64,000 nt of DNA. Source: Branchiostoma floridae (taxonomy: Eukaryota; Chordata; Leptocardii; Amphioxiformes; Branchiostomatidae). How positions within the stretch are numbered: the first letter of the stretch is position 1; each line of letters begins with the position of its first letter. A program made the position numbers and the translations under genes. Shown here piece by piece: positions 324 to 45,140 of this stretch. Location of the stretch: NCBI RefSeq assembly GCF_000003815.2, contig NC_049986.1:566864-630863 (forward strand), read 5' to 3'. The notes beneath the pieces are model-generated. The model ran no database searches. It saw only the letters and a list, made by a program, of their open reading frames with translations, and was not told the origin of the DNA.

Positions 324-1702
324 TTTCGTGGTTGCCCAAGATAACCTCGGCCTGTTGTTTCTTCTTCCGGAGACAAACCGCCCAGACCACAGCTCCCACC
401 ACCACGACAAGCAGTATACCCAGGCATACCGCCACAATCCACACGGGAACCCACACAGTTTGCTCGGTTGGTGTTATGTCTGAAAATGACAGTACAGTCT
501 TGTATCATAATCTCCAAGCATATGATAGGTAGATGGCCACCAATTCCTAGCTGCCCTTTTCTGTACGTGTCAAAATAACTCCTCAAATGAAAAAGACAGC
601 TAGAAAAATGTAACGAGTTAGCCCCCTACATCTGCTTGTAGATCAATAGTCATGCGCACTTTAACTTAAATGGCAACATGATTATGAGCATTTTGAACAT
701 TTCATGCACCCTATAGCTGGTAAATCGATATCGTAAGTCTAGCGCGACAGCTTCAACCGTAGTACAAGCAAATAAAAGGTTTTGTAAGACTCTTGCTTGC
801 TTCCGCTCTCAGCTTTTGTAACCGTGCGACATCAAGGTCGGGGAAAGTTTGGACGAACAATTGACATGCACTCGAGCAAACTTCCTCTTTATACCACACC
901 CTGTAGGTACACGGGGACAAGCGTGATTCAACACTTATTAGAGTAATGACTGTAAAAGTTATGGCACCTGGTAGAAGAATCGAATAGATTTCTCCTTTTT
1001 TTAGGATCCACACTTAGCTACTGAATTTATTTTAGAGTGACGGATCGAGGGAATTTACTTCCGAAAGTTGTTGCAGCATGACAAATTTCAAGTCGCTAGT
1101 CTGGATCGAGCGGGCCCGTGTACGGTTCGCTGAGTGCTTGATTGGCAGTTCACTTAGGCCTTACTCTCACATACTCTCACCACCGTACAGACCAGAGGCC
1201 AAGGGGGAAACAGTCTGCGGGGCATGAGCAAATGATCTTTATCTGAACAGATGGTTGCACGGGGCGGGCTTCATCACGCGCAATGTAAAATCCCACAGAG
1301 AAAAATCACGGCTTGCCTCCAGATTTCACTTCTCATGGGCACTGCTAGTTACTTTACGCATTGGTACATGGATAATGACAGAAAAATAGTATAATGAATA
1401 ATTACCTGTGATCCATTTCTGAGTAGATGATTGTAGCGCTTCCGTCACTGGTTTTCGCAGAAAATCTATAAAACATGAACATATTTTTTTCAAAGAAACG
1501 ATCAGTTAACATAACAGGCATATCAAATACTTTTCCTTCATTCAAATGATAACACGATAGAAGTTTCCTTACCTATGCATTTCTGTGTAGAACATATCCC
1601 TGTGTTAGGAAACTGCACACACAGACCACACGACATACAGTCGGACACAGGGTCTGGTTCAAACGCCATCCCCTCGGGACAGGTGGGAACGATGGTCGGC
1701 AT
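324..1702 (-). CDS. Gene A: small single-CRD TNF-receptor-like membrane protein (3' end outside window)
   Basis: Three exons are visible on the minus strand: 1573-1702 (ATG at 1700-1702), 1406-1465 and 324-479. All have AG/GT borders and continuous phase 1. The product starts MPTIVPTC without a signal peptide. It carries one six-cysteine CRD (C-x13-C-x2-C-x2-C-x8-C-x4-C), a stalk of about 20 residues, and then a hydrophobic helix (VPVWIVAVCLGILLVVVV...) followed by LRKKK, so the C-terminus should be cytoplasmic. This is the layout of type III receptors of the TNFR superfamily such as BCMA or Fn14, which signal through TRAF adaptors. The last exon, expected about 410 bp beyond position 324 by comparison with gene B, falls before position 1. 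The gene is a close tandem duplicate of gene B. Family assignment rests on cysteine spacing and layout, not on a database search. Confidence 0.72.
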
Positions 1703-4619
1703 CTTGGTGGAGCGGTGGGTTAAAATTAACTGATCCTAACTCGATGCTGTAGTATTGTGCAAGTTGGCGACGGCTACGATTCAGAGCCACAAATAATTGA
1801 TCTTCTGGACTTTCTTTTACCGCAAGCCACAAATCGTATTGTCTGCCTTGTACATTTTCCCCACCATGCCAGGCCAGTACTCGAGTACGTGTGTCCTCTG
1901 TAACAAACAGTGGCTAGAGTGGTTTTCCAGGTGATGTACTGTACAGTAGTATGACTGGAAAGCCTGACAACCAATCAGGCTTCGTCCCTTCTACTCTGGC
2001 ATCCGGCGCACCCATCTTTACTTTTGTGCACAGAGAACAAAAAGAGCAGCGGTTAGATACACATCATACAGGTGTAGAAAACATGTGCGTGTATGTGTGA
2101 ACTACTTCACACTTCCTGTCACCTGTGCAGTATCGTATATCATGTGAAAGGGTTGAACATACCACTGACATAATAGCATTCTGTTTGTTATCTACAAAAT
2201 GGATGTACGGGTACAAGAAAATCTATCGTGCTATTGTGACACCGTGGTTCATTTAATTTCCCTTAGAATGAGATCAGGGGGACAGAACATCACTGTAGTA
2301 TAAGTAGCGTATTTGGATTTCAAGTCTCTTCTATAGAAAAAAAACTTAATTCTGTCAGTTCAAAGCTCTGTCATCGGGTGAAAACTTTCATAACACCAAG
2401 ACTACATTTTACTTCTCACAAACATTCATTCTGTCTCTTTGAAGTTTTAGCCAAATATACTGGTAGTGTGTGTTGAGAACATATGATTAATATCATAAAC
2501 AAAGAAGCAATTTTTGTGCGTTCTAACCGTTTGTTTACATGTCGACATTCATAAAAAAACGCAGTACACATAGGCTGTTAGTGTTAAAGGTGTGCCTACC
2601 TCGTTAAGCGCACAAACATTGCCAATATTTGGCTGTCGCAAATGCCATATACATCCACATGTATGCACTTGTGGTTGTAATCGATCCCCTTAACCCCCAC
2701 ACGGAGTTGTTTGTCTTGGGCGACTTGACTGGGGTGGAGGAATGACATACGCAGTTCACACAGCAACATGTACAGTCGGTAAAAATACAACAATCGCAAA
2801 GTTCGGGGAGTTCGTTTCGTGAGATCAATGTCGCATCATTCCGCGTTTCAGTGGTTCGTCTTCCGCTCCACAAGAACGCGTGAACAAAATAACCTCGACC
2901 GCTTCATCTGCTTGGGAACTAATGACGCTGCAAAAGTCAGTTTATGTTGCGTTACTCAATGTAATGCGAAGCATTCTATTTACCTATGTCTTGTAAATAA
3001 TATTGAGGTATAATTTATCAAAGTTTGGTAAATGGAAGGCAGGGTTTGATTTTCGCCCGGTATACAACGATGTAAATAATGTTCCTTTCCAGAGGCCCGA
3101 ATCGTCTTAAATGTGTCTAATTTGTCTTTGTCATTCTCATTGGTCAATCGACACCTCAAATTGCTTCCCAAAGAACACTACCGCGTGTGTGATACGTGTA
3201 TTTAAATATAACCTCCTTGGACAGTACACGATACAGTATCCGCTCTCAGCATGTCCGAGTATTCAGAAATAAATACCAGACGCTGGAGTATTGATCTATT
3301 GCACCGGAGATCACCTGCATATGTAATAGATAAATGATGGGCGTGGCTTGATTATGTGAAAATAGGGGTTGCCCCACCCACAAGGGGGTTCCTTTAACAC
3401 CCGAGGCGAATCACCTGATAACCCCATGGCCAGCCCACAGCCCTTGTCAACCTCCCCCACTCCACACTATGTACACTGTTGTGTCTACCGTGTTGAGCTG
3501 TGACCTTAGGCTCAGGGGTCACATGAAGGTGTGGCGAGCTGATGTGCGGAAGGGCTCTGATTACTTCCGCTGGCCCTCAAACCTTTACAATACAATAGTC
3601 TAAATATAGAGACCCCCCTCGCTGTTGCCAGGTGTTTTTTAAATGTTCACCAAGAGGGGAGGGGTTGAAGTCACAGTCATACTCACGGCGGTCGACCAAT
3701 CGTCACTGGCTTCTTAATGACTGTTAGTAAAACTCCTTAGTCTATCGAATGTCTAATCGTACTTCATCTAATCGTACTTTCAATGGGCGGCAAGTGTCAA
3801 CAAACATATAATGCCTTTCATCACCAATGTTGACGCCAGACACTTGCCCTATGTGAAAGTTACGTGTTCAAAGGCGAGACAGCGATAACATTGTCTGGAT
3901 TTGAGTAACAGGGCAGGTTGTAACGCTACCCTTCCTCAAAACATAAACTTGTTCTTTTATTTTTCATATGGCGAGAATGCAAATATAGCAATGGAAAGAA
4001 ATGTATAGCAACAAGTAGTAAACTTCGGGACGGAGTGTGTCAGTATGTAGTTCAAGTGTGGATATGTACACACGAGTGGCTTATCAGAATGTCACCCTAA
4101 AACTGACTGCACAAAGTTTCAACATTTCCCACCACCCCCATTAGCTGCATGTGGTCTTGTTGTTGTGTTAACATATCAGCTCAGCTTTTGTAATAGACTA
4201 CTTATAACTTCAAAGGTTTGTATAGACTAATGATTGTATGACCTCCCCCCTTGATGTTGCAACAATTGCCATATTTGCCTTCTTTGTTAAACAACGATAC
4301 ATTTCAAAGCACACTTCAAAGGTTTGCGACAATATAGCTTATCTTGCAAACATATTGTTCCAAGGTATATAGACAGCATCGGAGCAATGCTCCAACTTCT
4401 AAACAAAACCGACGACCATCATTTACGAGTATCACATATAGACTCTTATACCCCCCCCCCCCCTAACCAATCCCTTTTCTATGATACTACATTCTTTCGC
4501 CGATATACGCAAAGAAACAGCAGGTGGACGTTTGTAGTTATTGCATCTAGTTCAAGTTCGTGACGTCGCCTTCATATTCGTCGTAGGCCGCAAGAGAACT
4601 AGTATAAGCAGCCGACAAC
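1703..4619. other. 5' flank of gene A, partly duplicated upstream of gene B
   Basis: No convincing coding exon is seen. Several stretches recur in the same order upstream of gene B: around 1960-2020 with 6670-6722, 2695-2750 with 7770-7835, and 3590-3650 with 8440-8500. This shows the duplication unit includes at least 2 kb of promoter-side DNA. A short hairpin with arms GGCAAGTGTC/GACACTTGCC sits at about 3790-3846. A C13 run lies near 4450. Confidence 0.6.
3600..3609 (+). promoter_or_regulatory. MEF2-like A/T box upstream of gene A
   Basis: CTAAATATAG fits the MEF2 consensus YTA(A/T)4TAR. The same 10-mer in the same sequence context occurs upstream of gene B at 8448-8457. It could equally serve as a TATA-like element. 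Function is inferred from motif and duplication only. Confidence 0.3.
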
Positions 4620-4848: not shown

Positions 4849-6427
4849 TCAGTGTTCGTCACCGGACAGTGAAACGTTGGGAGGTGAAGCCATAGCTGGC
4901 TGTAAGTCCAGTGTGTCTGAGGACGGCGGTTCTGTATTTTCCACTGGGAAATTCAATTTTTCCAGTGCCATGTCAGGAAGGGGCACTGGTTGGACGTCCC
5001 TCTTTTCTGAAAGTTTGAAAAAAAATCTGTTCAAATCAACTATACAAGTTACAAAATCAACTAGAAAAGTTACAACAGCCATTAAATTGGTACAGTATAC
5101 CCACAGCCACATGATAAGTAAATTATACACAGTCTTTGCAGTGTACATATATCATAACACCNTTAGTTGGGCATGTTTTAGCATGTTAACCAGGTACATC
5201 CGTTCTTGTAACAGGTGTCAATATAAATGGCTCATAGGACTTTGATCTCTTCCGCCCTATTTAATCTTTTGACGCCAGCTAGGCACACCTTTGTTGAATC
5301 AAACGGCGTACCTACAGGTATCATACACGTGTAGTTAGTTCTAACACGCGTAAACAAGCCTTCATTGAGAGGTCTAGACTTTGTATTAGATAAAATGTTG
5401 ATGACTCGCCAAACTTACCTTCGCGGTTACCCTTGATACTCCTCTTCTTTCGGAGTATAACCACTGTGACCGCAGTTCCCACCGCGACGACCAAGAGAAC
5501 GAGACACACGACCACAATCCACACCCATGCGGTTAGCTCGACTGGTGACTTGTCTGAAAAAAGCAACAGCACGGATTTGTTCTTATTGTCACTTTACATT
5601 GGTAAAGTCCTTTTAGGAGTTTTTCCTACCCCCGAAGGCCCCCTAATTAACGATGGTGAATTGTGAGTTTAGCGCGACAAGCAAATAAACTGTTGTGTAA
5701 GACTTCCGCTCTCGAGATCTCAAACGTTTACAACCGTGTGATATATCAGGTTCGGGGGGTTTTTGGACGAACAATTGACAAGCACTCGAGCAAACTTTCT
5801 TTCCACACCACATCCTGTAGGTAGACTACACGGGGGCAGGCGTGATTCAGCACTTATTAGAGTAAAGACTGTAAACATTATGGCAATTGCTAAAATATCG
5901 TAAATGCATCATGTAGGTTTCTTCTTCCTTTTTAATCCAACTGAGATTATTTATTATTTATTTATTTAATTTTTTATTTGGAGATTAGTGAAATCTCGCT
6001 GAGGACATCACGGCTGGCCCCCAGACATACCAGAGTTCACTCTCGATTGCGGGGTAAAATATAACGGAAGTACAGTAGCTGTAGTACTAGTGGCGCATGG
6101 ATTATGGCAGAAAAAAAGGTTTATGAATAATTACCTGTGATCTCTTCCTGGGCTGAGAATTGAAGTGCTTCCGTCACTGGTTTGGGCAGAAAATCTATAA
6201 AACATAAAACATTTTTTAAACCAATGATCCTGTACCATGACAGTTATATCAAACATTCTCCTTCATTCAAGTGATAAAACTATCGAAGTTTCCTTACCTA
6301 TACACTTCTGTGTTAAGCATATCCCTGTGTTAGGAAACTGCACACACAGACCACACGCCATACAGTCGGACACAGGGTCTGGTTCAAACGCCATCCCGTC
6401 AGGACAGGTAGGAACGACGGTCGGCAT
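4849..6427 (-). CDS. Gene B: small single-CRD TNF-receptor-like membrane protein, complete
   Basis: Four exons: 6298-6427, 6135-6194, 5419-5553 and 4849-5006 (stop 4849-4851). Together they give 483 nt and 160 residues with perfect phase continuity. The order is MPTVVPTC start without signal peptide; CRD at about residues 8-42 (CPDGMAFEPDPVSDC, then CxxCxxC, then C...C); stalk; membrane helix at about residues 74-96 followed by RKKR; cytoplasmic tail of about 60 residues. The tail contains PVENTE, which matches the TRAF6-type pattern PxExx(aromatic/acidic), although such a short match can be chance. The single CRD and N-out orientation suggest a receptor for a TNF-family ligand. It is a near duplicate of gene A, with the stalk exon 60 bp in both. 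A single ambiguous base (N) lies at 5162 in its last intron. Structure is well supported; ligand and function are unknown. Confidence 0.78.
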
Positions 6428-6967: not shown

Positions 6968-8701
6968 CGAGATCACTACCTACGTGTCTACCATCCTTGC
7001 TCAGTCAATACTGTTCACCCTACTGTTGCCGACAAACGAAACATAGGGTCAATGTCAACAAATCCTGGCCCTTCCTTTTTCATCTGAAGTGTTGCTCAAG
7101 AGCTCACAAAACACAAGGTGTACACAAAGAACGATCCCAGCAATGAATGGTCACTTTTGAAGTATTTTCTAACGCATTTTGAAAGGATTACCAAGTATAT
7201 GTATTTTGAATGATTGTTTTGCCCGCTACCTCGTTGAGGTGTACATTTCGGTAGGGCGATGGGAAGGGACCCCACGTCACACCAAGATGACGCGTTGAAT
7301 ATAGGATCAATTAGCGGAAACTTGAAGATCAAAGTTCACAACAGAACCACTTTTGACACTCGATTATTCAAGTGTATACGTACATGAAGTAAACCAAGCA
7401 ATGTCACTGACAAGTTGATCCATGATCACGGGTTATAACTGTAACAATTAATTGCAAAGTAATGAATTCAGGTCGGTTTTCACAGTATTCACAAAATTTC
7501 TGTAGAACTCCTTTTTTAAACACAATTCAAAAATTAACATCAACCAACATCCCAACGAAAGTAAATGGTAGGTGAGTCAATTTTCACCTAAAATTCATGA
7601 GTACTAGTAAATATTTTTGTCAGACAAGAAACATAACTTGCTTGTTCGAACGTTCACAACAGCCAAGCTACAACCGCCACACTTTGTTTCCGTACAAACA
7701 TTGTCATTATTTTGTTGTTACATAGTTCATCTAGCACACACTTCCGATAGTACCCATTCCTACTTCACCCGGACTCCCACACAGGGGTGTTTGTTCTCGG
7801 ACGACTTTGTCAGTTCAAAGGAATGGCGCTCGGTAACAGCGGGTAAAAATACCAACATCACATGGTAGTTATGGGACTTCTTATCTTTAGATCGAAATCA
7901 GGCGATATGTGTCGGCAAACACCCTGGCGGCCACAGAAGTCAAGACTGTTGCCATGCATGATAGTTTACATTTGTAACAACATCTAATATCCTATTAGAA
8001 CCACATACACACAACACACGTACACACAAACACTGACCTGAACCAACATTTCAAATTGTAAATGGATTGAGAGATGTCATAAAACGTTACCAATTGCAGA
8101 AATAACGTCCAAGAAGAGCCCACGAATTGTTTGCCGCGATTGTAGGTCAAATGGTACTTCAGATTGGCAAACATTACTGTCACAGAACTGATTGACACGC
8201 ACTTAACTTTTCAACGTGTGTACGCGTAGTTATCATGTGACATATTAGAGGTGGCTTGTTTCGTCCCGTGTATTCACCTATCCCCCTCCCCATCTGAGGA
8301 GTATTTTTTCTGGGACGACTTTGGGAGCACAAAGTCATAACTCATATCTCGCCTGGTCCTGTATGACCCAAGTTGTCACTTTACCTCCGGATCACACACG
8401 GGACAATACAGCGGATGTTTCCTGTGCGGTGCGAGGAGTCAAATAGTCTAAATATAGAACTCTGCCCTCCTGTTGCCAGGTATGTCTTCTGTAGAATCAT
8501 GGACCACGGGTTGAAATCAGGGTCACCTTAACCTTGTGGTTGACTACAGAATGTCTCTGTTTTGATACCATATTTCCAATGTCATTGTACAGGTGCCACT
8601 GACTGGCACTAAAGATTTTCAGGTTAATGAAAATCAAACTTAATTTTTTTTTTTTTTCAAAATCAAAATCAGTCTCAATGTGCTCAAAAATCTTAATCAG
8701 T
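6968..8701. other. Distal 5' flank of gene B
   Basis: No coding exon is recognised. The segment carries the paralogous counterparts of the gene A flank, interspersed with unique AT-rich DNA, and ends near a long T run at about 8644-8657. Confidence 0.5.
8448..8457 (+). promoter_or_regulatory. MEF2-like A/T box upstream of gene B
   Basis: CTAAATATAG is identical to the motif at 3600-3609, and both are followed shortly by a conserved CTGTTGCCAGGT or GCTGTTGCCAGGT stretch. Its survival in both duplicates may reflect constraint or simply recency. Confidence 0.3.
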
Positions 8702-8876
8702 TAATCTCCAAGCAGATCTTGCGGTGGCATAAGATAGCATCATAAGCTTGGGAATGAGTTTAGCCAGCACATGAGTTTCATCGGTGGCCAGTGAAACTCC
8801 TCTGTCGTCTAAACTCCTTTCCAAGCTTATGATACTACTTGTGTCTTATGCCTCCGCAAGATCTGCTTGGAGATTA
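8702..8876. mobile_element. Hairpin MITE of the TCTCCAAGCAG family
   Basis: The terminal inverted repeats begin TAATCTCCAAGCAGATCTTG and end with the near-perfect complement. The arms extend about 50 bp to AGCTTGGGAATG/TTTCCAAGCTTATG. There are no coding frames. Relatives or remnants occur at 10367-10490, 12330-12465, 34380-34698 and 42181-42381. Confidence 0.7.
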
Positions 8877-9649
8877 CTAGTATCAATCAGTATGGCCATT
8901 GGCCAACCTCAGCGGTACGGAGCATCAGGAAGTTGAAGCGGCCGCTTACCCAATTTATCAATCAAGGGCCTCCCCAGAGCCTCTAACGGGACGCGTGAAG
9001 ACAAATTCATTTGTGACTACGAGAGCCGATGTCTACCCGGCTTCAGAGCCCGGCCGGGGCCTAGATAGATTCATCACCGCGCGGGCCCCCTAGGTAATGT
9101 GACGTAGGCTTTACATGCGCCCTTGAAAAATTCACTCTTACCGCGCGCGCATGTTTGTGTGTTCACTACTAGTATGTGGAAGTTCGGTGTATGTAAAACA
9201 CCCGTACTCAAAAGACATAATTAAGGGTTAATGATCGTTAATGACCCGCCCGAGGTGTATATGGTGGCATAACGCCTGGTCCTTTGCTATAACGACCGAA
9301 TAAAACCACCGAGTGAGCGGGTAGTCAGCATTCACTGGATGTTTCGACCTTGTCCCGATACATCCTCGTGCTGACCGGTCAGCAGTGGTGGCCACTCACT
9401 GCTCGTCTCGCCCCTCTGGTCTCCAATTCTGCTCGTCTCGCCACTCGAGTATATATCAGGAGAAAGAACTCATGTCACTTAAGTCTAGTCTTCGTGTTCG
9501 GCTTCATTTCGTGCCGGTGCATGTAATTATTTCCATTGTCGCCCCCATATCTTAGTACAGCACTCGGACAATACTATTATTAACAGTATCAACCCTGCCC
9601 ATGTTTCCATGTTCCAGTGCAGTGGCTGTAACTATATCTGATGTACCAG

Positions 9650-10820: not shown

Positions 10821-12955
10821 CTATTCCGTGACCACTCTTTCAGACGACCCCCGTTGGTCCTCTTGTACAGGCAGTTTCAGCTCCTCTTCTGCAGTGTTCT
10901 CAGCTCTTTCTGGTGCGTTTCCTGTCACGTCATTGGGAAATATATGTACACGGTAAGAAGGGTGGTATCCTTTCAATGCCATAGGCAGCTTGCAATCTTG
11001 AATGTTTTGTGCATGACAGGTACATCTAATGTCTGTTGAAATACAGAAAGGTTGATGTATCTAGAATATTGTAGTTACCTTGTATAAAAGTCTTGTATAA
11101 AATGTAGATGACGCCGCCAATGACCACAGAAGCCAGGATGGACCCCAACACAATCAAGGCCACGATGCCTCCAGACACACCTTGCACTGATACAACAAAG
11201 GGTAGGAATTGCAATTCAAACAAAATAAAAACTTTTAGAAAGTATAGTCTGTGTGGTATGTGTGAACCTCAAACAAGACAGATAATGAGTTTATTGCAAA
11301 TACATGGCCGAGGGTTATAGCTAATTACTGGTACATGTGCATAAGATATCGAAAAATACAATGATATTCAGGGCGACTTCCAATGTTATGCTTGGTGATA
11401 GTTTGGTTGGGTTTTACTTCTTGTCCTCAGGCACAGTGGAAGACGAAATTACCCTCTATAACATGTGGGTTTTCTCGTGGTCAGAAGTAGTGGGAAAGTA
11501 GGTGTGTATTTTAGATAACAGAAGTATTCAGGACTGAATGATACTCACCTGTAGGTGCATCATGTGTGTGTGGGAGAGTTTGGCTACCTGTGGGACCGGG
11601 AGGGGTGGGCCCTATAAGGGGAACAAAGGAGTTTAATGGTGAGCCAGTGTGCGCTTGACTAAACACATGATATTTCAGTTAGGGACGTCAGAGCGTTTGC
11701 CAAATCAAAGTTCTGTTGCACACCTGTGCAGCAGAAATAGATAAAAGGCCGCCCAGGTGACAGTATGCCTCAAGCTATAACTCGGAACAAGTTATTCAGA
11801 TAAAATCTACGAGCCCTTGAAGCCAGACAAGTCGCGCTTCGTGTAATGTTGTTTGTCAGGTAATTTAGAGACAGTCTGTCTAGCTAGACAAACTAGCTTA
11901 TGAAATCCCCCCATTTCTAGATAGGGCTCAGCACAAGCACAAGTTATCATTAAGCTTGTACCAAATCTGTCGTATTTGACTGTACTGCATTTTACACAAT
12001 GTACACTCAGTCTAGATCTGTCTTCCCATGATTTCCCATATCAATAAGGGTAGCCTTTGGAAACCAGAGTACCCAGCGTGGTTTCTGAAGTCCCTACTCG
12101 GAACAGCGAGCTGTTTCCTCCCCCTCCAACTTGCTAACCGTAAGGCTGTTGGGGGTACTCTGTTTCTTTACCCCTACCTAGCCTGGTATAGTGGTCTATA
12201 ACATCGGGACCGGAGCCCGTCGTGCTGGGAGAGCAGACCGCCCGCCCTGTCTATTAGCCCTCGACGGGGGATCTTTACGGGGTTGGGTTTAGTTACCATT
12301 AAGTTAACCCCTACCTGGCCCGACTTAGACTTGATAATGGCAAAAATGAAGGGGCGTGGGGAGAGGACTTGGCGGTGGCCAATTTTACTCCTCTGCCGGC
12401 TAAACTCCTTCCCCAGCTTATGTTACTGTTTTATGACACGGAGGTATCTGCTTGGAGATTATTGTGACCGGTAAACTGACTGAAAGGGTAGCGATAACTC
12501 CCTCGGACATGGAGCGCTAATAATATAAGAGATCGGCGGGTTGACTGCCTTGGGTCCCCGAATAAAACTCGCGCTAGCTACCCGATCCTGTCTGTGGGTA
12601 CGCTCTATATAACTACACTGACTTCTAACGTATGCTTAAGCTGCCAACCGCTTATAAATCTACAATCTCCCACCGATAAAATACTACTGTGCATGTGTTT
12701 CAGCCCCTTACCTGGACAAGCGTTATTCTGGCACATCTCCATGGCTGGATTTTCGTAACATATATTACACGATGGGCAGTCCTCGTTTATCGGATCCCAC
12801 ACGCGGCCTGGCGGGCATGTGTACGGCACCTCCCGAGGAGACCTCGTGGGCGATGCGGTAACTCTCAGCCACGGAGTCAGGAAGCATATATGGACGATCA
12901 CGATGAACATGATGAAGGAAACACGTGGAGTATGTACTAGCATGTCCAGATGCAC
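10821..12955 (-). CDS. Gene C: secretory-signal, single-CRD TNF-receptor-like protein
   Basis: Four exons: 12712-12955, 11549-11611, 11079-11186 and 10821-10921 (stop TAG 10821-10823). They total 516 nt and 171 residues in perfect phase. Unlike genes A, B, E and G, the first exon encodes a hydrophobic signal segment (SFIMFIVIVHICFLTPWL, about residues 13-30) before the CRD. The CRD starts CPPGRVWDPINEDC and has spacing C-x12-C-x2-C-x2-C-x8-C-x4-C. The 63-bp exon adds a Pro/Thr-rich stalk. The 108-bp exon is the membrane helix (GGIVALIVLGSILASVVIGG). The tail is acidic and contains LPVQEDQ. PVQE fits the major TRAF2-class motif (P/S/A/T)x(Q/E)E and resembles the CD40 tail. A type I receptor coupled to TRAFs is the likely role. 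A palindromic kappaB-type site lies 460 bp upstream. Confidence 0.78.
12180..12470. repeat. Repeat block plus MITE remnant in gene C intron 1
   Basis: The part near 12230-12300 (CCGCCCGCCCTGTC, then GGGGATCTTTACGGGGTTGG) recurs at about 16120-16175 and, diverged, at 23945-23995. The part ending ATCTGCTTGGAGATTATT at 12447-12464 is one terminus of the TCTCCAAGCAG MITE family. Both lie inside the first intron of gene C. Confidence 0.5.
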
Positions 12956-15077: not shown

Positions 15078-16475
15078 CTACACAACTAGCCTCTGGGTCT
15101 CAGGGTCGGCTTCTGGGTCAGTAGTAGCGACCTGAACAGGCCGTGTCGTCACACCTGAAACAAATAAACATGTAGTCACTCAAAACAACTTTTTTTATAC
15201 CGTCGGATTTTCTTACTATAACTATCTCCTACGGTCAATGCCTTAAGTGGACAAATTCAATAAAAAATAGTTGCTGAAATGAAAAAAAATGTTTCACGAT
15301 TCAGACATATCAGTGTCGACCTTAAAACACAGCAGTTCCAATTTTTTCATACAAGTATGATGTTACGTAGAACTTTTACGTATGCTATTGATTTTTGACG
15401 ATCCTAATGCCACTACATCGAACATTTCCAGTGTCCCGGTGTAGACTTTTATCGTATCACAAACAGTATGTCCTTGAAGAACTCGAATCAAAATTGGTAA
15501 ATATGGACACGATGCATACGAGTTATGTTACACTAGTGAAATGATTTTACCTCTGTCCCTCCAGCATCTACGGTACCGGTAGACAATGAACAAGACAGCC
15601 GCCATTACCACCACACAGGAGACAACTATGCCAATTACAGCACCGGTAGAGAGGGTTCCTGAACAACAAGACCGTACTGTCACATAAAAACTCACTGGCG
15701 TCCCTTAAATATATTTAAAGCTACTAATTCAGAATAGACAAAATAATACACAGTTCTGATATCAGTGGATGGGGCAGGCCTGAGTTGTGGAAACATTCAT
15801 CTCGAGGGCTTAATCGGTGGGAGTGGTCGGGATATTATAAACAACAAATATTCAAGTGTTTTGTGTTGACCGTTGGTCATCGAGGTACGTCACGTTGGTA
15901 CAGTATTGACGTTTGTGCAAACACACTTTTTTTTATTATTTAAAAAAAGTAACTTACCAATTCCTAGATTGCCCCCTGGTGTGTCACTGGAAGAAAGTTA
16001 ATCGTATAGGTAAGAATTATAATATCACACCCGTGTTGTCTATATTATATATATATATCATCATGGTATCTATACCATCGGGAGCTCCCCTAATACTCTA
16101 CGGTGTTAGGTGTGTTGTCCGCCCGCCCTGTCGATTGGCGCACACCCGGGGATTTTTACGAAGTTGGTTTCAATTACAAAATGTACTTCGAATTCGCAAC
16201 TACAATTATGGAAATAGAGGAGATAAGTCGGTCGTAAACTTAAGAATTTCGAACAAAAGGGAATCTAAAAGACCGGTTTGTGATCAAGAAGAGAAGAAAG
16301 TTCCAGAACCGTGCGTGGCATGTAACACGTGGAGGGACCTGTAGTAGTTGACGATCAATGCTTAAGGGCATTTACCTGCATTTCTGGCATATCGCGGTCT
16401 CAGGAAAATCCTTACACAGGCTGCACGGCAGACAGTCTTGTCCCACGCGAATCCTGACGGACAGGTATCACTCAT
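15078..16475 (-). pseudogene. Gene D: single-CRD TNF-receptor-like gene with a 10-bp frameshift deletion
   Basis: Four exons match gene E one to one: 16376-16475, 15958-15986 (29 bp), 15551-15658 (108 bp, membrane helix GAVIGIVVSCVVVMAAVLFIVY) and 15078-15154 (tail with TTRPVQV, stop TAG 15078-15080). Exon 1 is 100 bp against 110 bp in gene E. Ten bases are missing just after the codons for FAWDK, so the CRD goes out of frame after its first cysteine. Splicing into exon 2 then meets a TAG after about 40 residues. The splice sites, helix and tail remain intact, so the lesion is young, or it is a haplotype variant or a sequencing error. Without the deletion the gene would encode about 107 residues. 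The tail motif PVQV lies where related receptors carry TRAF-binding sites. Confidence 0.72.
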
Positions 16476-21201: not shown

Positions 21202-21812
21202 CTAGCACCACATTCCCCCTACCCTACAGTTGTTCGTCACAGTTTCTGCTACAGTGTTTGGCTCCTCCTCTTGGACGGCACATTTCACTTTGTTTGTCTC
21301 CTGAACACCAACTTTGGTTGGAGTGTTGTAATGACCCGTTTGTAGTGGCTCATATGGTGGTACTTCCGTCTCCCCTGAGTGACCCTTATCTGTCCTTACC
21401 AGGTTCACGGTCACTGTGGGGAGGAGAAATAGACGGAAGTTTGTCATGAATATTAATTGTATAAAGATCACAATCTGTAAAGCTAGCACTAAAGTTAGAC
21501 ATTCCTAGTAAACACGAACATATACTAAAGCAATCAGACGTTGCTATTGATACCGCAGTTTAGAAGAAAGTTTAATTTGTTTGGCTCCCTCTACGTTTTT
21601 CTCTCAACTTGTGGTTTAAATTTCATGCAGCTTAAATTTCGAAGAAAACAAATTGTATTTTTTTATGTCTATGCTACATTATTCGGAATTCCTATAATAT
21701 ATCTAAAGAGGCCATTAATATAGCGCTGAATATTTTCTTATTTTATTTGTGTTCATATCATTGTACCCACCTTGGAGTTTTCTTCTGCAGTACCACACCA
21801 GGAGAACAAGGG

Positions 21813-23033
21813 GGCCCCCAAAGCCCTTTTCCGTAGAGCGTAATCGGCGGTTTTAATTCTACGTACTACGTAGCAGGACCGCTCGAATTCAACGTAGAGC
21901 GTAATAGGTGCATTTTGCGTCGAGCGATATTGGCCCCTTTAATTTAACGTATTACGTAGAAGCTAACGGGATTTTACCGTAAAACGTAATTCATCTTACT
22001 TGTTTGAAAAGCATAATCAAAATTCCATTTAACTAGTCTACCGGCAAATTTTAACCGCGAAAATGCAGGAAATTGCGTTTCAAAGAGTCCAGATTTCAAA
22101 ATTTCGCTGGACCTTCCTTGCAGTGGCTCACCTCAGCGGCTTTGGACATGGTGAAAATATGTTGCGGGAGCGTCGCCTCCCAACAAGTAGAAATTTCTTT
22201 ACCAAACCAAGCTTAGTTAACAAGCAAAATGTGCCCCTTAAATGCAAGAAACTGCATGTCAGAGGGTCAAGATTTCATATTTTCTCCGAGCGGACCTTGG
22301 GCTTGCGATGGCTTAGGCCTCTGGCGCTCACGACTCTCCAGTGCTCGTCGCCCTCAAAAACGTTTCTCTGACAGAAATGTCATTACATTGAGCACATAGT
22401 CTGCCAGCAAAACGTGTCCCCCCAAAATGCAGGAAATGGTGTTTCAGAGATACAAATTTCCAAATTTTCCCGTACCTACCTTGCAACAGTTCATGCTTTC
22501 AGCAGTCGAAATCTAAAAATGTTGTTTGGGGGCGTTGCCCTCAATATATATTTATAATAACTTTAAGCTAAAACCATGTGAATTTCTAATTGAAATGCCA
22601 TTTAACTTAGCTTAGTCTGTTTGCCCTTCAAAATGCATAAAATGGTGTTTCAGAGGATCAAGATTTCACAATATTCCCGGGGGAACATGCCCCTGGACGC
22701 CCCTATGATTATCGTGCCTCCGCTTTTGGTGCTACAAGTGCTGAAAATTACGTCACATCAGAAATTTGCTGTCGCCACCTTTGGCCAGCAAGACGGGCGC
22801 TTTTATATCGTCTAAGTTAAGTTTGAATCTTGTTGATGGAATCATAAGTTCAAGTTGTTAGATCTCCTCTTCACGGAGTTCAGCCAAAAGACGATTAAGA
22901 TTTGGATAATGCATTGTGAAACTTCGTAATTTAGCGTAGAGCGTAATAAAGCGTCCATAATTTAGCGTTTTACGTAGCCGGCCCTTACGAATTTAGTGTA
23001 GAGCGTTGTCGGTACTCCCCCTTGGGAGCCCTC
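21813..23033. mobile_element. 1.2-kb terminal-inverted-repeat element inside the gene F membrane exon
   Basis: The ends share G.GGGC.CCCAA as inverted repeats. AACAAGGG occurs at both borders (21805-21812 and 23034-23041); the G run leaves the target duplication at 6-8 bp. Near both ends are several GTAGAGCGTAAT and TTTACGTAG-like motifs. No transposase is visible, so it is non-autonomous. An 8-bp duplication would suit a hAT-type element. Confidence 0.75.
22060..22715. repeat. Internal tandem repeat of the gene F insertion
   Basis: Four diverged units begin with AAAATGCAGGAAAT-like sequence followed by GTTTCAGAG..TCAAGATTTC, near 22061, 22240, 22425 and 22630. Spacing is about 180-200 bp. 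Confidence 0.6.
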
Positions 23034-23339
23034 AACAAGGGCTGCGACAGTTAAGGCCACGACAGTGGAGATCTTAACTATCAGAGACACAGGGCCTGGA
23101 ACACCTGTACCCAGTATACAACACATCAACACATAAGATTTCCAAGAAAACTAACTATATCGTGCAATGATTTAATGAAAAAAAAACCGCCAGGAAACAA
23201 GTTCTACATGCGAAATTGGCAATCGTCATTCGATAGGATCTTCCCATATATACCTGTCTTAGCCCTCAGATAGGGCAATGCAACTGTGATTATTGCATAT
23301 TTATTATACATAAACACGAAAATGACAAACACAGAAGGG

Positions 23340-25354: not shown

Positions 25355-25772
25355 CTTGACAGGACGTGCATACTGCCCTGATCGGTAGGTTGTAAAGCTT
25401 GCAGTATCCGTGAACAGCGTCCAAGACATATCCAGGTGGACACGTGAACTCACGGCCGGGAAAAGCCGTGCTGAAGCCCGAAAAAGACAGAAAATAGATC
25501 ATCGTAAACATCTTCATCTTGTCCACCATGGGTAGGAAAGATTTCTGCAGGTGAAACTGAGGTGCAAGTAAAAGAACGCGCGGTACGATACGCCTGGCTA
25601 AATACGAGAGGTTTTTTCTAGCATTGCACTACAGGGAAAAGAAAACACGTCGTTCTTCGTTTGGAGTCTGAGGTAGAATGGCCGGCTCAGACCGGCTGGG
25701 AAGACAGGGAAGCCTTCTGCAGCTGCGACCGATCCGCACATTATTTACCACAGGGGTGTGCCTACTATACGA

Positions 25773-27532: not shown

Positions 27533-28528
27533 TCAAGAGGCCCCGTCGTTCATCTTGTTGGTGAGATCGACAAGTTCATTATTCAAGGTAAACATGGACT
27601 CCCGTCTCTCCCTAGCCAGTTCACAAGAAATTCTGATCAGGAGAGAGCGAGTTCTAGCCTTTACATCATCCCACCAGGCTCGCAAAGAAGGAAAACCTGG
27701 TTTCAAAGTCTTCCAATTGTTAAAAGCGAGTTTAAAATCATTTAAAACTTTGTCTCTTTTTAAAATCGAGACATTACATTTCCACAAGCCAGGCTTCTTC
27801 TTCACATCCGGTAAAATTGACAAGGACACACAGTCATGGTCTGTAAAATATGCGGGTAAAAAACAGTAGTTTGAAACGACGAGGCATTTAGACGAATAAA
27901 ATCGGTCCAGCCGACAGGCAATACCTTTGGTCGGCTGTCTCCAAGTGAAGACCTTTTTAGAAGGATTCTCATGTCTCCAAGAGTCATGCACATTAAAATC
28001 GGCGCAAATGTCTTTTAAAACGGTGGAACCGCCACTACCATGAGCCGGGTTCCCGCCCCTCTTATCAATATCAACATCTTCAACACAGTTAAAATCACCG
28101 CACAAAATAAGGGGCTCAGCCCCCGACAGAAACTTATACAAATTTTTAAAAAATCCAGTACGCTCCGCAGAAATGTTAGGAGCATACATGTTACAAACTT
28201 TGAAATTACGCGCACCATCGGACAAGACGACACAGACAACACGCCCACTGTCGTCACAAGACTTTTTAACCACATCAAAATTGAAAGATGGAGAGAGTAA
28301 AATACCCACACCTCTAGATTGGGAGGAGCCCAATGCCCAAAACGCTTGGCCTCCCCATTCCTTCTCCCAGAGCACCGCTTCAGATGTTGACGAAACATGG
28401 CACTCTTGGAGGCAAACAACGTCAAATTTATGTTGACGGCAAAAGCCTCCTCTTCTGCGGACTACGGAGCCCACAGACATTGAGTGTAGCAATAAGAACC
28501 ATGAGGCTACATAGAGAAGGAATGTCAA
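27533..28528 (-). CDS. LINE ORF2 endonuclease domain (frameshifted start)
   Basis: The frame encodes an apurinic-like endonuclease domain with its motifs in order: FDVVCLQECH, WGGQAFW..S.SRGVGIL, NMYAPN, CGDFNC, RLDRFY and TDHDCVSL. These provide the metal-binding and catalytic residues of the endonuclease/exonuclease/phosphatase fold that nicks target DNA. The expected N-terminal motif (IATLNVCGLRSPQKRR) is in another frame at about 28435-28500, so a frameshift lies near 28440. The frame stops at 27533 before the gap. Confidence 0.85.
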   Translation of the reverse strand: MTFLLYVASWFLLLHSMSVGSVVRRRGGFCRQHKFDVVCLQECHVSSTSEAVLWEKEWGGQAFWALGSSQSRGVGILLSPSFNFDVVKKSCDDSGRVVCVVLSDGARNFKVCNMYAPNISAERTGFFKNLYKFLSGAEPLILCGDFNCVEDVDIDKRGGNPAHGSGGSTVLKDICADFNVHDSWRHENPSKKVFTWRQPTKGIACRLDRFYSSKCLVVSNYCFLPAYFTDHDCVSLSILPDVKKKPGLWKCNVSILKRDKVLNDFKLAFNNWKTLKPGFPSLRAWWDDVKARTRSLLIRISCELARERRESMFTLNNELVDLTNKMNDGAS

Positions 28529-28549
28529 ACAACATCAGAATGTGAGGAA

Positions 28550-30443
28550 TTAGTGGTACAGATCATCAATTCCTTCCACACCAATTCGGTTAACAAATTG
28601 GGGGTGGACATTGTAGAGGTGCTTGAGACATAACATGGTGGTTTTAAAAAACCTCGAACAATTACCAACCTTACAAGGCACAACGTCCCCGGAGATGCCA
28701 TGCGCCTTTGCAAGGTGAGATTTCAAAGACCTAAAACTATGCAAGAGTTCGTCACAACCATGAGAAATAAACTGGTTGCACACAAAGACAGCCTTATTCT
28801 TGTACAAGTCAGAGGAGATGACAATGGCTCTCGCCTTTGCTACCAAATCGGGACTTGGAGCCTGAGAGGCATCCGAAGTATCCTCATCAATGATGAGGCT
28901 TCTGGAGCCAACAGTAGAGTCAGACTCGTTACCGTCCACAGAACGAAGACTCTCCGAGGGAAACTCCTCGATAACAAGACTGGAGTCGGAATCCGGCTCC
29001 TTACGAATCTTTTTTCCTTTCGACAAAGTCTTTGCAGAGGCAGAACCCTCACTGGAATCACCCCTACACCTTTTCCTGGAATCTTTGTCAGCAATATCAG
29101 AGTTGCCATCATGGCAGCTCTGACAAAGAAAGAGGCGATTATCGCTTTGACAAACTGGGCCCTCACAGAAAGCAAGGAGAGCAGATTCTGGAGTTATGTC
29201 TGCCTTGCACTGATGACAAGACACCACCTCCAGAGTGATTGTGTAATCCAACTCACAACCCTGACACATGTACCGACGAGTAACAGGTCGGATAGGACTG
29301 GCCGCCTTACGCCTCCTTCTCTGGGACCGGGCGCGAGGGGCCGGTACCGGAGCAGCAGATGTTGAGGGTACCTGCTCGCTAGAAGAGGAAGAAAGGCCAG
29401 GCTTGGCCAGAGAAGGAGCGGCCTCCGACAGCAAGTCCCCAGACGGCTCAACCACCGCGACCGGAGAAAACTTGGTCAGAGAAGGAGCGGCCTCCGACAG
29501 CACGTCCTCAGACGGCTCAACCACCGCGACCGTAGGAGAAACCTCCGGCTCCGCGACCGGAGAAGAAACATCCGACTTCACAGCCGAAGAAGTACCCGGG
29601 TCCACACTGCCAGGGTGACCTGGAGGCGAAACAGGATCAGATACACCAGACTCTGCGTCAGAAACATGGGCCAGTTCCGACCGATCAGTCTTATTTACAG
29701 CCTGAGGAACCCCTCCATCATGATGTTCACGGACCTGACTCACACCTGCCGGGAGCTCTTGGCTCTTAGCCCAACTGGCTCCCATCTTAATCCTGTTTGC
29801 GAAGGACAGGGGACAACGGCGGGCCGTATGTCCCTCTGCCCTGCAACTGAGGCACACAACATCGTTGGTACAATCCATGGCCAAATGCCCAATGGATTGG
29901 CATTTGTTGCAAAATGTTACTGCACAATTTGCCGACTCATGGCCTTCCTGGTTGCATCTCAAGCAGGTACGGGGCTGCCCCACATACCTGAAGAAAACCA
30001 TCCTCCCGTCATACATTTTCCATGCTGATGGGATATTGCATCCCGGCTTTAAAACTACTTTGTATTGCCGGTTCCCATTTTTGATTGTCGGTCTGTCCCG
30101 GTATGTTACCATACGGGACGTGATGACGGCACAGTATTGATTTAACCAGTTCCTGACATAGTTGTCATCGAGCTCATACGGAATTCTTGTGGCCGTGACA
30201 ATTATCTCCGCCGCCGCGTAAGATGACACATGGATCCACGGCGTCTAAACCAGACAGTTTCCCCGCATACAATGTACGCTCGTGTACCGAGGAAAATGAC
30301 ACGTCGAATGAGTTTGGTCCCAGAGACTGAACAGCCTGAATGCTGCTCATGGGAGCCGAAACCTCGCTCAGCAAAGTAAACACTTGTTCATACGTTAACC
30401 GATCACGGTACACGGCAACTTTTATTGAAAGAGGACGCTTCAT
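28550..30443 (-). CDS. LINE ORF1 nucleic-acid-binding protein (frameshifted)
   Basis: The N-terminal 70 or so residues (from ATG at 30441-30443, starting MKRPLSIKVAVY) are in one frame. The rest (about 559 codons to the stop at 28550) continues in another, joined near 30230 by an apparent one-base frameshift. The long frame carries three CCHC zinc knuckles (C-x2-C-x4-H-x4-C) at about residues 89-139 and a Ser/Pro-rich linker with an internal direct repeat (PTVAVVEPSEDVLSEAAPSL and its copy). A cluster of C-x2-C pairs lies at about 305-370, and C2H2-type fingers near the C-terminus (for example C-x4-C-x12-H-x4-H). ORF1 proteins coat LINE RNA. This is not a host gene. Confidence 0.75.
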
Positions 30444-39003: not shown

Positions 39004-40955
39004 TCACAGCCTCTGGGTCTCAGAGCCGGTTTCTGGGTCAGTATCGACCTGCACAGGCCGTGTCGTCACATCTGAAACAGACAGACGGAACACTTATCAT
39101 CATGATCTTTCCCAAATATTCAAAGTACACTCTATACTGTTTTAGGTCCGTGTCAACCAGGAACTATTTATGTAGATAAAATCTGACTTCAGAGACAGTA
39201 CGTCATATTTTTTTGACAAGGAAAATGCTAACGTAATTTCACTTGATTATAGATCTGCAAAGATTTGCCACTGACATAAATGTTTTTTCTTCACACACTG
39301 CATATTGATCTTATTATATATAAACCTACAGACAACAAACGAACGTGTGGAATACATTGAATATTTGTAGCTTTAACAATAATTTTACCTCGGTCCTTCC
39401 GACACTTGCGGTAGACGAAGAACAAGACAGCCACCAACACCAGCACTATGACACAGGACACCACTATTCCTGCCACTGTACCGGTCGGTAGGGCTCCTAC
39501 ACAAAGAAAATGTTTACGGTATCAAATGGCCACTTACATTTGCCGTGTACCACTTATTTCACTCTCACTGGTCTGAAACATTTACAATGTTCACTGCGAC
39601 TCAATTAAAGTAAATCAATTGCTTGCTACATATGTCCAGTATACCATGCATGCTGAATGATAGATAACCATGATTTACACGGGATGTTTCAGTAACAATA
39701 GAAAAAATAAATTTACACATTTAAAGGGTGCATAGGTGGGGGGATACAATCATTTATCGGCGTTTAACAAATTTGTGGGCGTCATTGTCGGGAATGGTGT
39801 AGCTTTTGTTGTTCGGGTAAATAGTCATGAAGATAGTGTATACAACAACAGCTCAGAATACATACTGGTGGCCGGTATGTGAGAGTTTAGAGATGACGCC
39901 ATTTATGTATTGTTCATTGTCACGCCTCTAGCCTTTCCCTACCGCAAACCTGCCCAGATCCCCATAACACCCCAACAGACAGGTCTATAAGGTAATTATA
40001 CCCAGGTGTGCCACCCGTCATTGTTGCTACCTGACCCATGTAAAAATCTTCCCCACGGGCAAATCCCAGAAATTACAGGAGCTAATCTTTACCCACCCTT
40101 TGATCTCAATGGTTACCTGTCAGAAAGGTATAAATGTCACTAGATAACATTTAACATTTTTCAGGTGGTATTAATATATATTGTTTATGACCGTCCATTG
40201 TCACTATGTGTATACCATGTACTTACAATTAGCCCTCGGGTACGAACTTGCAATTAACTTCTTCTTCACATTAATTTTATTTCTTCAATTCCACTGCCAT
40301 GGATAGAGTGGATATAACACCCGTGGTCATGATTGTGTGGTAGTCAATAATGGGACTCACCATTATCGGGGTTGTTCCCTGGTGTGCCGCTGAAAATAAA
40401 AATAGAATCATACCAGCATCAGAAACTCGTATGCACGGTATGGCAGCATACTTGCATATTTTGTCTCTTCACTCATTTTGCACTCATACTTCAGATAGAC
40501 ATTTCCATTGAGAAGTAACCAGATATCAAACGCATTATATGTAGACTCAGTGAAGGGGCCAGGCACTTTTTTTAGGATACTCGCTCAAGGCCATCCCACA
40601 TCCCACTTGAACTGAAGCCAAGTGTGGCAAAATCCCCAAACATGTACGACACGTATACCACACAGGTTACGCCAAAAAGTGAGAATAAAGTGAAGACATG
40701 GCTATTTAATTTGCATTGGATCAGAGCGGTAGGAAGACGGCACATGTATTTCCAATAGTATAGTTCAACTAGACAACTAGGCTCCACCACATGTACACGT
40801 GGCTACCGGAATGTAGACGTGACCGGCAAATCAATGAACGCTTACCTGCATTTCTGACAGATCGCCGTGGCCGGAAATTCCTGACACAGACTGCACGACA
40901 GACAGGCCTCTACTACCTTGTCCCACGCGAATCCAGACGGGCAGTTGTCACTCAT
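39004..40955 (-). CDS. Gene E: compact single-CRD TNF-receptor-like protein (Fn14-like spacing), complete
   Basis: Four exons: 40846-40955 (ATG 40953-40955), 40361-40389, 39389-39496 and 39004-39071 (stop TGA 39004-39006). They total 315 nt and 104 residues, fully in phase. There is no signal peptide. The CRD starts CPSGFAWDKVVEAC and runs C-x12-C-x2-C-x2-C-x8-C-x2-C, the same spacing as vertebrate Fn14 (TNFRSF12A). A short stalk (SGTPGNNPDN) leads to the helix GIVVSCVIVLVLVAVLFFVY and RKCRKDR. The tail has 22 residues with TTRPVQVDTD, where PVQV stands at the place expected for a TRAF-binding site. Intron 2 contains a solo LINE tail (about 40225-40262) and a 390-bp segment duplicated at 42440-42830. 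It is the intact counterpart of gene D. A TNF-ligand receptor role is inferred. Confidence 0.78.
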
Positions 40956-42180: not shown

Positions 42181-42381
42181 CTCATCCAAGCAGATGTTCG
42201 ACTCCGGCTGTTTTTAAAAATATTTTTTGGCGTTTTTGTCGGGCTTTCTATTTTGGACAGTTTTCTTTATGCCTCGCGCCCAATATAGACATGAAGAAAA
42301 CGGTACAAAATAGAATTCCCGATAAAAACGCATAAAATGGTGAAAACACAGCCGGAGCCGATCCTCTGCTTGGAGAGCAGA
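42181..42381. mobile_element. MITE of the TCTCCAAGCAG family
   Basis: The inverted arms TCCAAGCAGATG...CTCCGGCTGTTTT and AACACAGCCGGAGCC...CTCTGCTTGGA share the CGGGCTTTCTATTTT core motif with 34380-34698. It is more diverged than that copy. Confidence 0.7.
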
Positions 42382-42439
42382 TCCTCTGTTCGGGTGACGC
42401 GACCTTTGAGATTTAATTGCAAACTCGTAGCCATGATAG

Positions 42440-42830: not shown

Positions 42831-43719
42831 TCAAGAAGTTGATTCTGACAGACATTGTTACAAATGGACAAACAGCAGTTTGTATCGTACAAGCTCGACC
42901 TTATTTGTTCAGTTGCTCCCTCTGACGTCTTCTTGCCGAGTTGCATATCCCGTCTTAAAAAGGCCTTAAAACACTGGGTTTTAGTGGTTGTGTGAAAGAT
43001 TATTGAAGAGAATGAGCCATGGCATGCACGCAACTACACAAACATTGAATACTGTAGTATATCTATGACCCAAAGAAATCAGTATCAAAGGCATTGAGAT
43101 TTGCGTTTCATGGTATTAGTAAGAGTGTTGACCATCTTAAAGTTCACTTTCCTGTTGTCAAGAATGTTGTTGGTTCTTGATATTTGTCAACAACATTGTT
43201 TCTATGATTCAACCAAATACTTCATTCGTACTGTACACTAATGTAGTGAACGTTGACCTTGAACGTTGACACTGTGTACATATGACTCAGCATTGGTCAC
43301 GTGGCCCTAAAGGTCTGTTTACGTTACTTGGCAGTAAACAATATGGCGGGCAGCGCAGACCATTACGCACGTCCCACCTTCGCCAATATCCCAAGTTGAC
43401 CAGCGCATCAGGAACATTAAACATCACTGTCAAACTCAAAATGCCGTGTCCAACAAACACAAATCTTCAGATGTTGTCTGGGAATGAGGTATTACGAAGG
43501 TACGTACAGGTCCCAACTGAACAAAGTTGTAAAGGTATGAGTCATACGTATACGATCAACAACTTAAAATAGAGCATGATTCAGACGGACTTTCCACTCT
43601 TACAAATAGTATGCAAGTCCTGTTGGGTTAAGGCGACATTTAGACAATTCGCTGGTGGCTTGCAGACCGTCGGAAGCATTTACCTTTAGTCTAACAAGTG
43701 GCGAACTAAACGAACAGAA
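42831..43719. other. Shared flank between the minus-strand cluster and gene G
   Basis: This is probable 5' flank or untranslated sequence of gene G. The ORF at 43282-43572 (plus) has no domain features. No core promoter element was recognised with confidence. Confidence 0.35.
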
Positions 43720-45140
43720 ATGCCAGCAGTAGTGTGCCCAGCGGGTCAGGTGCCAGATGGACTTCCGGGTTCTTTCAACTGCGTAGATTGCCATACCTGT
43801 ACGGCATACCCAGATTCGCCATGGTGCCCGAGTTGTGAGTTTTCTTTGCCGTAACTCGTTCTGATTAACATGGTATACGTTCTGCACAGCACCTGTGTGT
43901 GTCAGCCACTGTTGATGTAGCAACCTTGTGTTGGAAGGTAAAACACGGTTAGTTCTGTAGTGCGTCATAGTAGATCACGTCGCAATTCAGCGACAGACTA
44001 GTGCCAATGAAAGAAGCTGCTCTTTTGGGCCAAACAGTCCTATTCTGCTCCTTTTAACACTATGTCATCATCTGTTTACAGGTTTACTGGCCACAGAATC
44101 ACCGACGACATTGGGTACGTTTGCTTAATTTAAATACGGTAACCGTTTTAGAAGAATGCAGTCGTACCGACTTGTGTGTATGCACGGTGCGTGTGTGTAC
44201 ATGTATCCGAATGATTTGGTGTGTGTGAGTGTCTGTGTATACATGTGTGTTTAGTATGTGTGTGTACATGTATGTTTAGTGTGTATGTGTATGTGTGTGT
44301 GTGTGTGCGTGTGTGTGTAGGAGTAGGTGTGTGTGTGCAGCCGTATGTGTTCATGACTGTGTGTGTGTGTGAATATGTATGTGCTTGCTTGTATTTGTGC
44401 CTGGTTTATGCGTTGGTAGGCTAGGGGTATCTGTGTGGGCGTGGGTTTGATGTTTGTGTCTGGGTGTACGTTACTCAAGTTGCAAAAATACATTGTACTG
44501 TAACGTGTGCCTTTCAATTATTGTTAACTCTCAGTCGAAGCAGACCTATCCTGGCTGTGGGCGGTAGCTGTCATCATTGTTGCCGTACTTTTAATCACTG
44601 GAATCACCATCTACTGTTGGAGGAGAATTGGGCAAAAATATGGTACTTAAAGAAAGTCACATGTTCTCATTATGTAGTTGAATTGCTAGTCGTCTCGACG
44701 ATTTCATACTACAGTATTGTATCGTACATTGCTATAAATTATTGTACTTACTTGATTCAATATATTTTCTGTTAAATTAATTCCCTAAGTTGATTTCTAT
44801 GTTGATTTAAAGTAATTGCTTCTTCTTCTGTATCAATATTTACTGAATATTTGTTGTATTGGGTTATATTTGTGTCCATACGGCGGCATTGAAAATGTGA
44901 ACTTGACCGCGAACACCTGCATACTTCACCGTACCGTTTACTGTTGTGGAGAAGCATGATAAATAATTACATCTTGGAACTCAGACGCAGGACTAGGGAA
45001 TGGAAACGATGTCGATATAGTCATTTATTGTTTTATTTGCATCTCATCTAGATCCAAATCCAGTCACTGTAAATGCGGTGCCAGCTACTACCACCATGTC
45101 GGCACGTTTGGTTACTGCTGCGGATGGAACACATGTCTAA
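43720..45140 (+). CDS. Gene G: plus-strand single-CRD TNF-receptor-like protein, complete
   Basis: Four exons: 43720-43834, 44082-44114, 44535-44642 and 45052-45140 (stop TAA 45138-45140). They total 345 nt and 114 residues in continuous phase. It begins MPAVVCPAGQVPDG without a signal peptide. The CRD is C-x14-C-x2-C-x2-C-x8-C-x2-C, with the last cysteine codon split across the first intron. The 108-bp membrane exon (same length as in C, D and E) encodes WLWAVAVIIVAVLLITGITIY and WRRIGQK. The short tail (DPNPVTVNAV...) has no clear TRAF motif. Intron 2 holds a TG-rich microsatellite. A donor-like GTATGC about 10 nt after the stop suggests a spliced 3' UTR. Confidence 0.76.
44216..44440 (+). 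repeat. TG-rich microsatellite in gene G intron 2
   Basis: A run of (TG)n with interspersed TATG and CG steps over about 225 bp. It generates spurious open frames on both strands. Confidence 0.9.

Follow-up and report, generated by a model that had tools for sequence, protein, structure and literature searches.

In a 64,000-nucleotide stretch of the Branchiostoma floridae genome (contig NC_049986.1; G000:C8:566864-630863, hereafter the window), seven loci labelled A to G by position carry an exon resembling a cysteine-rich domain (CRD), and these loci probably represent a tandem cluster of very small TNF-receptor superfamily receptors of the Fn14 (TNFRSF12A) type, coupled to TRAF adaptors and serving amphioxus TNF ligands. 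A preliminary description made from the sequence had reported seven such loci under a TNF-receptor name. The loci are borne out, with positions 324 and 45140 being the outer exon ends of A and G, and the family name is supported and narrowed to the Fn14/TNFRSF12A type by Pfam, a PDB profile search and a predicted fold. In five of them (A, B, C, F, and G) the CRD has its six cysteines intact, and the membrane exon to which it is joined is open. Since D is frameshifted and E is interrupted, the count of seven receptor genes becomes five, with two more that have decayed, and the earlier observation as a whole is partly confirmed, with corrections. Loci A to F lie on the minus strand and G on the plus strand. 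E is located at about 25 kb and F at about 40 kb; the two letters were most likely exchanged in the preliminary description (its E being our F, and its F our E), judging from its statements on splice phase and 108-bp exons.

Family assignment of the cluster

The full F model scored 32.8 bits against PF12191 (stn_TNFRSF12A), above the Pfam cut-off of 24.9, and a CRD profile searched against 177,635 PDB sequences ranked Fn14 first and TACI next, with BAFF-R also matched; the profile check proposed earlier for the assembled CRDs thus came out in favour of the family. The Fn14 match in the PDB was lost with two column-shuffled control profiles in which the cysteines were kept (three sets generated, two searched), and cysteine spacing alone was therefore rejected as its cause. 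The spacing had been likened to that of both Fn14 and BCMA. For Fn14 the likeness holds: cysteine-to-cysteine spacing in F is identical to that in human Fn14, and in A, B, C, and G one or two of the gaps differ from it by 1-2 residues. BCMA has a different spacing. For F's CRD, structure prediction gave a β-hairpin with two short helices (predicted local distance difference test, pLDDT, 78; predicted template modelling score, pTM, 0.40). All 13 of the 13 entries listed as fold matches were BCMA, Fn14, TACI, or BAFF-R, with low Z, and the absence of other folds from them proves nothing.

Single CRDs scored below the PF12191 cut-off, F's CRD alone reaching 12.9 bits. Also below it were the full models of G (19.4 bits) and A (12.6 bits, with the best stretch starting from residue 41, past most of the CRD), and the full B and C models gave no match. 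No window locus passed the Pfam cut-offs of TACI-CRD2, BCMA, or BAFF-R, and no Death-domain match to Pfam was detected in the A, B, C, F, and G models, that of A being without a tail. The generic profile TNFR_c6 (PF00020) had no match in the window-locus models; tested on 15 single CRDs, it matched 2 at an expect value up to 1 (best 0.013). When the genome (513,431,437 bases in 431 contigs) was searched with TNFR_c6, none of the 25 matches listed lay at these loci, Fn14-type paralogs included, with 59 of 209 first-look candidates unscored. A TNFR_c6-based survey would probably miss these loci. On these sequence comparisons we file the cluster as a putative lineage-specific expansion of Fn14-type TNF receptors. 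The CRD is too short for a tree to tell kinship to Fn14 itself from kinship to the wider Fn14/TACI/BCMA/BAFF-R group; in the CRD tree nothing was resolved except A plus B.

Gene models, constraint, and decay

Open four-exon models with AG/GT splice sites were obtained for B (160 residues), C (167 residues), F (104 residues), and G (114 residues), in agreement with the CRD-stalk-membrane-tail plan reported for all seven loci. The plan is interrupted in E, whose membrane exon is split, and incomplete in A, whose model has three exons and 115 residues; its frame runs open through the last donor, and a comparison with B's tail brought up no tail exon. Of the phase-1 joins with exceptions described earlier, phase 1 was recovered in the A, B, C, F, and G models, the CRD-stalk join of F being phase 2. 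The 108-bp membrane exon is found exactly so in C, D, F, and G. The exons of the five open loci, in window positions, are as follows.

1573..1702, minus strand: locus A, exon 1, start codon and six-cysteine CRD (MPTIVPTCPEG...), without a signal peptide in the exon
1406..1465, minus strand: locus A, stalk exon, 60 bp, phase 1-1
324..479, minus strand: locus A, membrane exon, 156 bp
6298..6427, minus strand: locus B, CRD exon (MPTVVPTCPDG...)
6135..6194, minus strand: locus B, stalk exon
5419..5553, minus strand: locus B, membrane exon, 135 bp
4849..5006, minus strand: locus B, tail exon with PVENTE
12712..12943, minus strand: locus C, exon 1, hydrophobic leader and six-cysteine CRD
11549..11611, minus strand: locus C, stalk exon, 63 bp
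11079..11186, minus strand: locus C, membrane exon, 108 bp
10821..10921, minus strand: locus C, tail exon with LPVQED
40846..40955, minus strand: locus F, CRD exon (MSDNCPSG...), with the Fn14 spacing
40361..40389, minus strand: locus F, stalk exon, 29 bp, phase 2 in
39389..39496, minus strand: locus F, membrane exon, 108 bp
39004..39071, minus strand: locus F, tail exon with RPVQVD
43720..43834, plus strand: locus G, CRD exon (MPAVVCPAG...)
44082..44114, plus strand: locus G, stalk exon, 33 bp
44535..44642, plus strand: locus G, membrane exon, 108 bp
45052..45140, plus strand: locus G, tail exon with NAVPATT

A membrane helix is predicted in all five models, with a best 19-residue hydropathy of 2.7-3.3, and a strongly hydrophobic N-terminus is present in C only. 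The start codon in A, B, F, and G lies 4-7 residues ahead of the first cysteine, so that these, like BCMA, may be type III proteins that have no signal peptide; homology between D and F stops 3 bases before the start codon. An upstream exon may still exist. Window positions 1-210, beyond A's membrane exon, presumably derive from a long interspersed nuclear element, reading like its endonuclease.

An alignment of loci A and B spans the CRD, intron, and stalk, with 83.9% identity across 367 bases. Synonymous differences between them (26.3 over 78.9 sites, pS 0.33) are in excess of nonsynonymous ones (35.7 over 245.1 sites, pN 0.15), with a one-sided P of 0.0005, or 0.011 for the CRD alone, and the predicted A-B protein is shown by this excess to be under constraint. 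D and F are alike by 79% in the CRD exon, 69% in the membrane exon, and 88% in the tail exon (75 bases). The ratio of nonsynonymous to synonymous rates (dN/dS) for the D-F pair, measured on few codons, is 0.28 in the membrane exon (35 codons) and 0.94 in the tail (21 codons), the latter indicating a tail without constraint. An intron stretch at 764-966 and 5677-5885 is kept between A and B (79%, with indels); it was considered as a possible extra exon, and the frames fall out of step between the two loci. Some 2 kb before the start codons of A and B lies a conserved stretch containing CTATATTTAGA (3594-3633 and 8442-8481), a possible promoter.

Two loci, D and E, have decayed in the present assembly. 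The CRD exon of D measures 100 bp versus 110 bp in F, and the ten missing bases shift the frame into a stop, so that D encodes no whole CRD in the assembly. E's CRD exon has four cysteines only, its first exon reading like a leader, and its kinship to the cluster is a weak match (34% identity to C's CRD with an expect value of 0.002; 6.7 bits with a custom CRD hidden Markov model, HMM). E's membrane exon is split by a 1.2-kb insert at 21813-23033 with identical 8-bp AACAAGGG copies at both edges, as a DNA transposon would leave; the ends of the insert are only weakly inverted, and the 8-bp copies read as a target-site duplication.

16376..16475, minus strand: locus D, CRD exon, 100 bp, frameshifted, broken
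15958..15986, minus strand: locus D, stalk exon
15551..15658, minus strand: locus D, membrane exon, 108 bp
15078..15154, minus strand: locus D, tail exon with RPVQV
25355..25529, minus strand: locus E, leader and degenerate CRD exon (four cysteines)
23034..23104, minus strand: locus E, membrane exon, first half
21813..23033, no strand assigned: insert in E's membrane exon, with AACAAGGG copies at 21805-21812 and 23034-23041
21771..21812, minus strand: locus E, membrane exon, second half
21202..21413, minus strand: locus E, tail exon (AVQEEE)

Elsewhere in the window, remains of a retrotransposon without long terminal repeats occupy 27533-30244, with a zinc-knuckle frame and an endonuclease frame, beside a 921-bp run of N. 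Plus-strand exons at 54234-63800 encode Sushi domains at 54-56 kb and EGF domains of the calcium-binding type at 60-64 kb and probably belong to one or two other genes.

Relatives, tails, and ligands

With C's CRD as the genome query, 12 matches were obtained at an expect value up to 10, four each on C8 (the contig of the window, all four within it), C378, and C5; the F protein gave 32 matches at the same threshold, of which several fall elsewhere than in the CRD. Three other contigs (C17, C378, and C5) hold related genes, in which the number of such CRDs is one, two, or three. Two genes on C5 each carry three tandem Fn14-type CRDs in one exon (L028:5588-6202 and 8776-9621) and score 41.3 and 38.7 bits against PF12191; the first is also above the cut-off of the peritrophin domain CBM_14 (24.6 versus 22.1 bits), and the second above that of TACI-CRD2 (25.3 versus 22.9 bits). 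Two genes on C378 read as two-CRD genes, the first scoring 11.4 bits against PF12191, below cut-off. A 108-bp phase 1-1 membrane exon is one of two candidates in the C378 paralog, and that of the other C378 gene is 114 or 120 bp. A first CRD on C378 (L031:3838-3933) is without the third and sixth cysteines, which are a bonded pair in Fn14. The C17 locus (L032:4904-9592) has a leader and one Fn14-type CRD (14.8 bits against PF12191, below cut-off), followed downstream by a membrane stretch and by an open frame of 840 codons that encodes the domains ZU5 (65 bits) and Death (44 bits); if the pieces form one gene, this is possibly a death-domain receptor with an Fn14-type CRD. No further CRD locus was matched by the custom HMM at an expect value up to 1 in the flanks of the window (20 kb at one end, 10 kb at the other), where short tblastn matches reached 0.013 at best. 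The stretch C3:26.09-26.11 Mb, to which F matched for the most part with sequence other than its CRD, was discarded, holding no CRD by the custom HMM; a match at C3:5.2 Mb is below cut-off.

A PxQ core occurs in the tails of C (LPVQED), D (RPVQV), F (RPVQVD), and the C378 paralog (YPVQTT). The pattern PxQx[TSD] was found in 3 of 6 tails versus 0.26 expected from shuffling (P 0.0016, with D and F taken as one), in 2 of 5 window tails alone versus 0.20 (P 0.014), and, with two C5 tails added, in 3 of 8 versus 0.35 (P 0.004), which is weaker than the six-tail test; the patterns were picked after the tails had been seen, and these tests do not include C17 or the second gene on C378. PxQx[TSD] is absent from the tails of B, G, and the two C5 genes, and the stricter pattern [PSTA]x[QE]E was not above chance (2 of 6 tails versus 0.98 expected, P 0.25). 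The loop between the first and second cysteines contains D-x-[VIL] in all six window loci having the loop (1.15 expected; 0 of 20,000 shuffles); among the CRDs of paralogs just 3 of 11 have it (2.18 expected). In Fn14, BCMA, and TACI the ligand-contacting hairpin carries Asp-x-Leu or Ser-x-Asp-Leu, as described in PMC8024323.

The genome search for TNF domains gave 28 stretches, 15 on C12, five on C18, three on C13, two each on C1 and C228, and one on C7, and none on C8, C5, C378, or C17 (49 candidates scored). With none of the 28 on the contig of the window, a linked expansion of TNF ligands, for which the preliminary description had suggested a search, was not found. A candidate ligand exists, since PMC8517431 roots its TWEAK tree with a protein of B. 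floridae that is TNFSF12 (TWEAK)-like. For amphioxus, 24 ligand genes are cited in PMC7674686, one group being described there as closest to TNFSF13 and EDA.

Proposed mechanism, alternatives, and meaning

From the PxQ tail motifs, together with a D-x-[VIL] near the reported Asp-x-Leu, we propose TRAF-coupled receptors for TNF ligands. The single CRD would bind one edge of a trimeric TNF-family ligand; it would be followed by a short stalk, then one membrane helix, and a short tail without a death domain that would recruit TRAF adaptors via its PxQ-type motifs, so that ligand-driven trimerisation could lead to NF-kB/JNK-type signalling. We infer that the loci would be transcribed and that the proteins would bind ligand and recruit TRAF, perhaps with an immune or repair role.

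The same proteins could be decoys or regulators, short receptors by descent that bind TNF ligands without signalling and are free to decay. The tails are indeed very short (about 20-70 residues), A's has not been found, two of seven loci are broken, B and G are without PxQ motifs, and the D-F tails are without protein-level constraint at a dN/dS of 0.94; yet PxQx[TSD] is common to C, F, and the C378 paralog, and the tails are the most similar DNA part of the D-F pair (88% over 75 bases), and we regard decoys as improbable. It also seems unlikely that the cluster is mostly decaying, with one or two loci expressed and the others pseudogenes, given the open frames and proper splice sites of B, C, F, and G and the constraint on A-B; such decay would account for the frameshift in D, the interruption and lost cysteines in E, and the missing tail of A.

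Small cysteine-rich membrane proteins of another CxxCxxC family, unrelated to TNF receptors and convergent in spacing, are a reading that we consider most unlikely. Weak Fer4 (ferredoxin-type) Pfam matches were seen in 3 of 15 CRDs, F alone as the query retrieved ferredoxin-type PDB entries, and one C5 paralog lies above the CBM_14 cut-off (24.6 versus 22.1 bits). However, that paralog scores higher for PF12191 (41.3 bits), Fn14 is top-ranked and spans all six cysteines in the PDB alignments while iron-sulfur matches are partial, controls with the cysteines alone lose the Fn14 match, and the fold matches listed are all Fn14, BCMA, TACI, or BAFF-R. Matches to ferredoxin, LIM, and peritrophin-type cysteine families, mostly partial or weaker than Fn14, were set aside.

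Receptors of the Fn14 type thus remain the preferred reading. The loci resemble Fn14 in having one CRD, a short stalk, one membrane helix, and a short tail without a death domain. They differ in forming a seven-locus tandem cluster, in that A, B, F, and G show no signal peptide, which Fn14 has, and in their PVQ-type tail motifs, that of Fn14 being PIEET. BCMA (TNFRSF17), TACI, and BAFF-R are type III receptors of very small size whose CRD is N-terminal; the cluster resembles them in predicted-fold matches and in the D-x-hydrophobic of the first hairpin, with TACI and BAFF-R found in the profile search, but the window loci remain below their Pfam cut-offs. Fn14, BCMA, TACI, and BAFF-R control tissue repair and B-cell survival in vertebrates. 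Drosophila Grindelwald is an invertebrate single-CRD TNF receptor with a fold resembling Fn14, BCMA, and TACI, and according to PMC8024323 it has a Cys-x3-Cys C2 module and no Asp-x-Leu motif; unlike Grindelwald, the window CRDs retain the Fn14-type CxxCxxC core.

A large amphioxus TNF/TNFR repertoire has been reported, Table 1 of PMC4979521 giving 10 TNFRs for B. floridae, and the earlier TNFR list of Huang et al. 2008, a study cited in PMC7674686, may already include some of these genes. We found no literature on amphioxus with Fn14 among papers within reach, subscription papers being outside it. Our results suggest that generic TNFR_c6 surveys undercount invertebrate TNF receptors, and that the amphioxus lineage multiplied a receptor class best known from vertebrate immunity and repair. 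An amphioxus family standing beside Fn14, BCMA, TACI, and BAFF-R by profile and fold makes the question of their origin testable, and raises that of the TNF ligands to which a single Fn14-type CRD would bind in an animal that has no B cells of the vertebrate type. More tentatively, and with less than even confidence, amphioxus may keep the ancestral pool of the vertebrate single-CRD receptors: one family with one, two, or three Fn14-type CRDs, perhaps with a death-domain version, and with members mixing Fn14 spacing with BCMA-like features (no leader, a D-x-hydrophobic hairpin, and a PVQ TRAF motif). If so, vertebrate BAFF/APRIL and TWEAK signalling would trace to a common, already diversified chordate receptor system of innate immunity.
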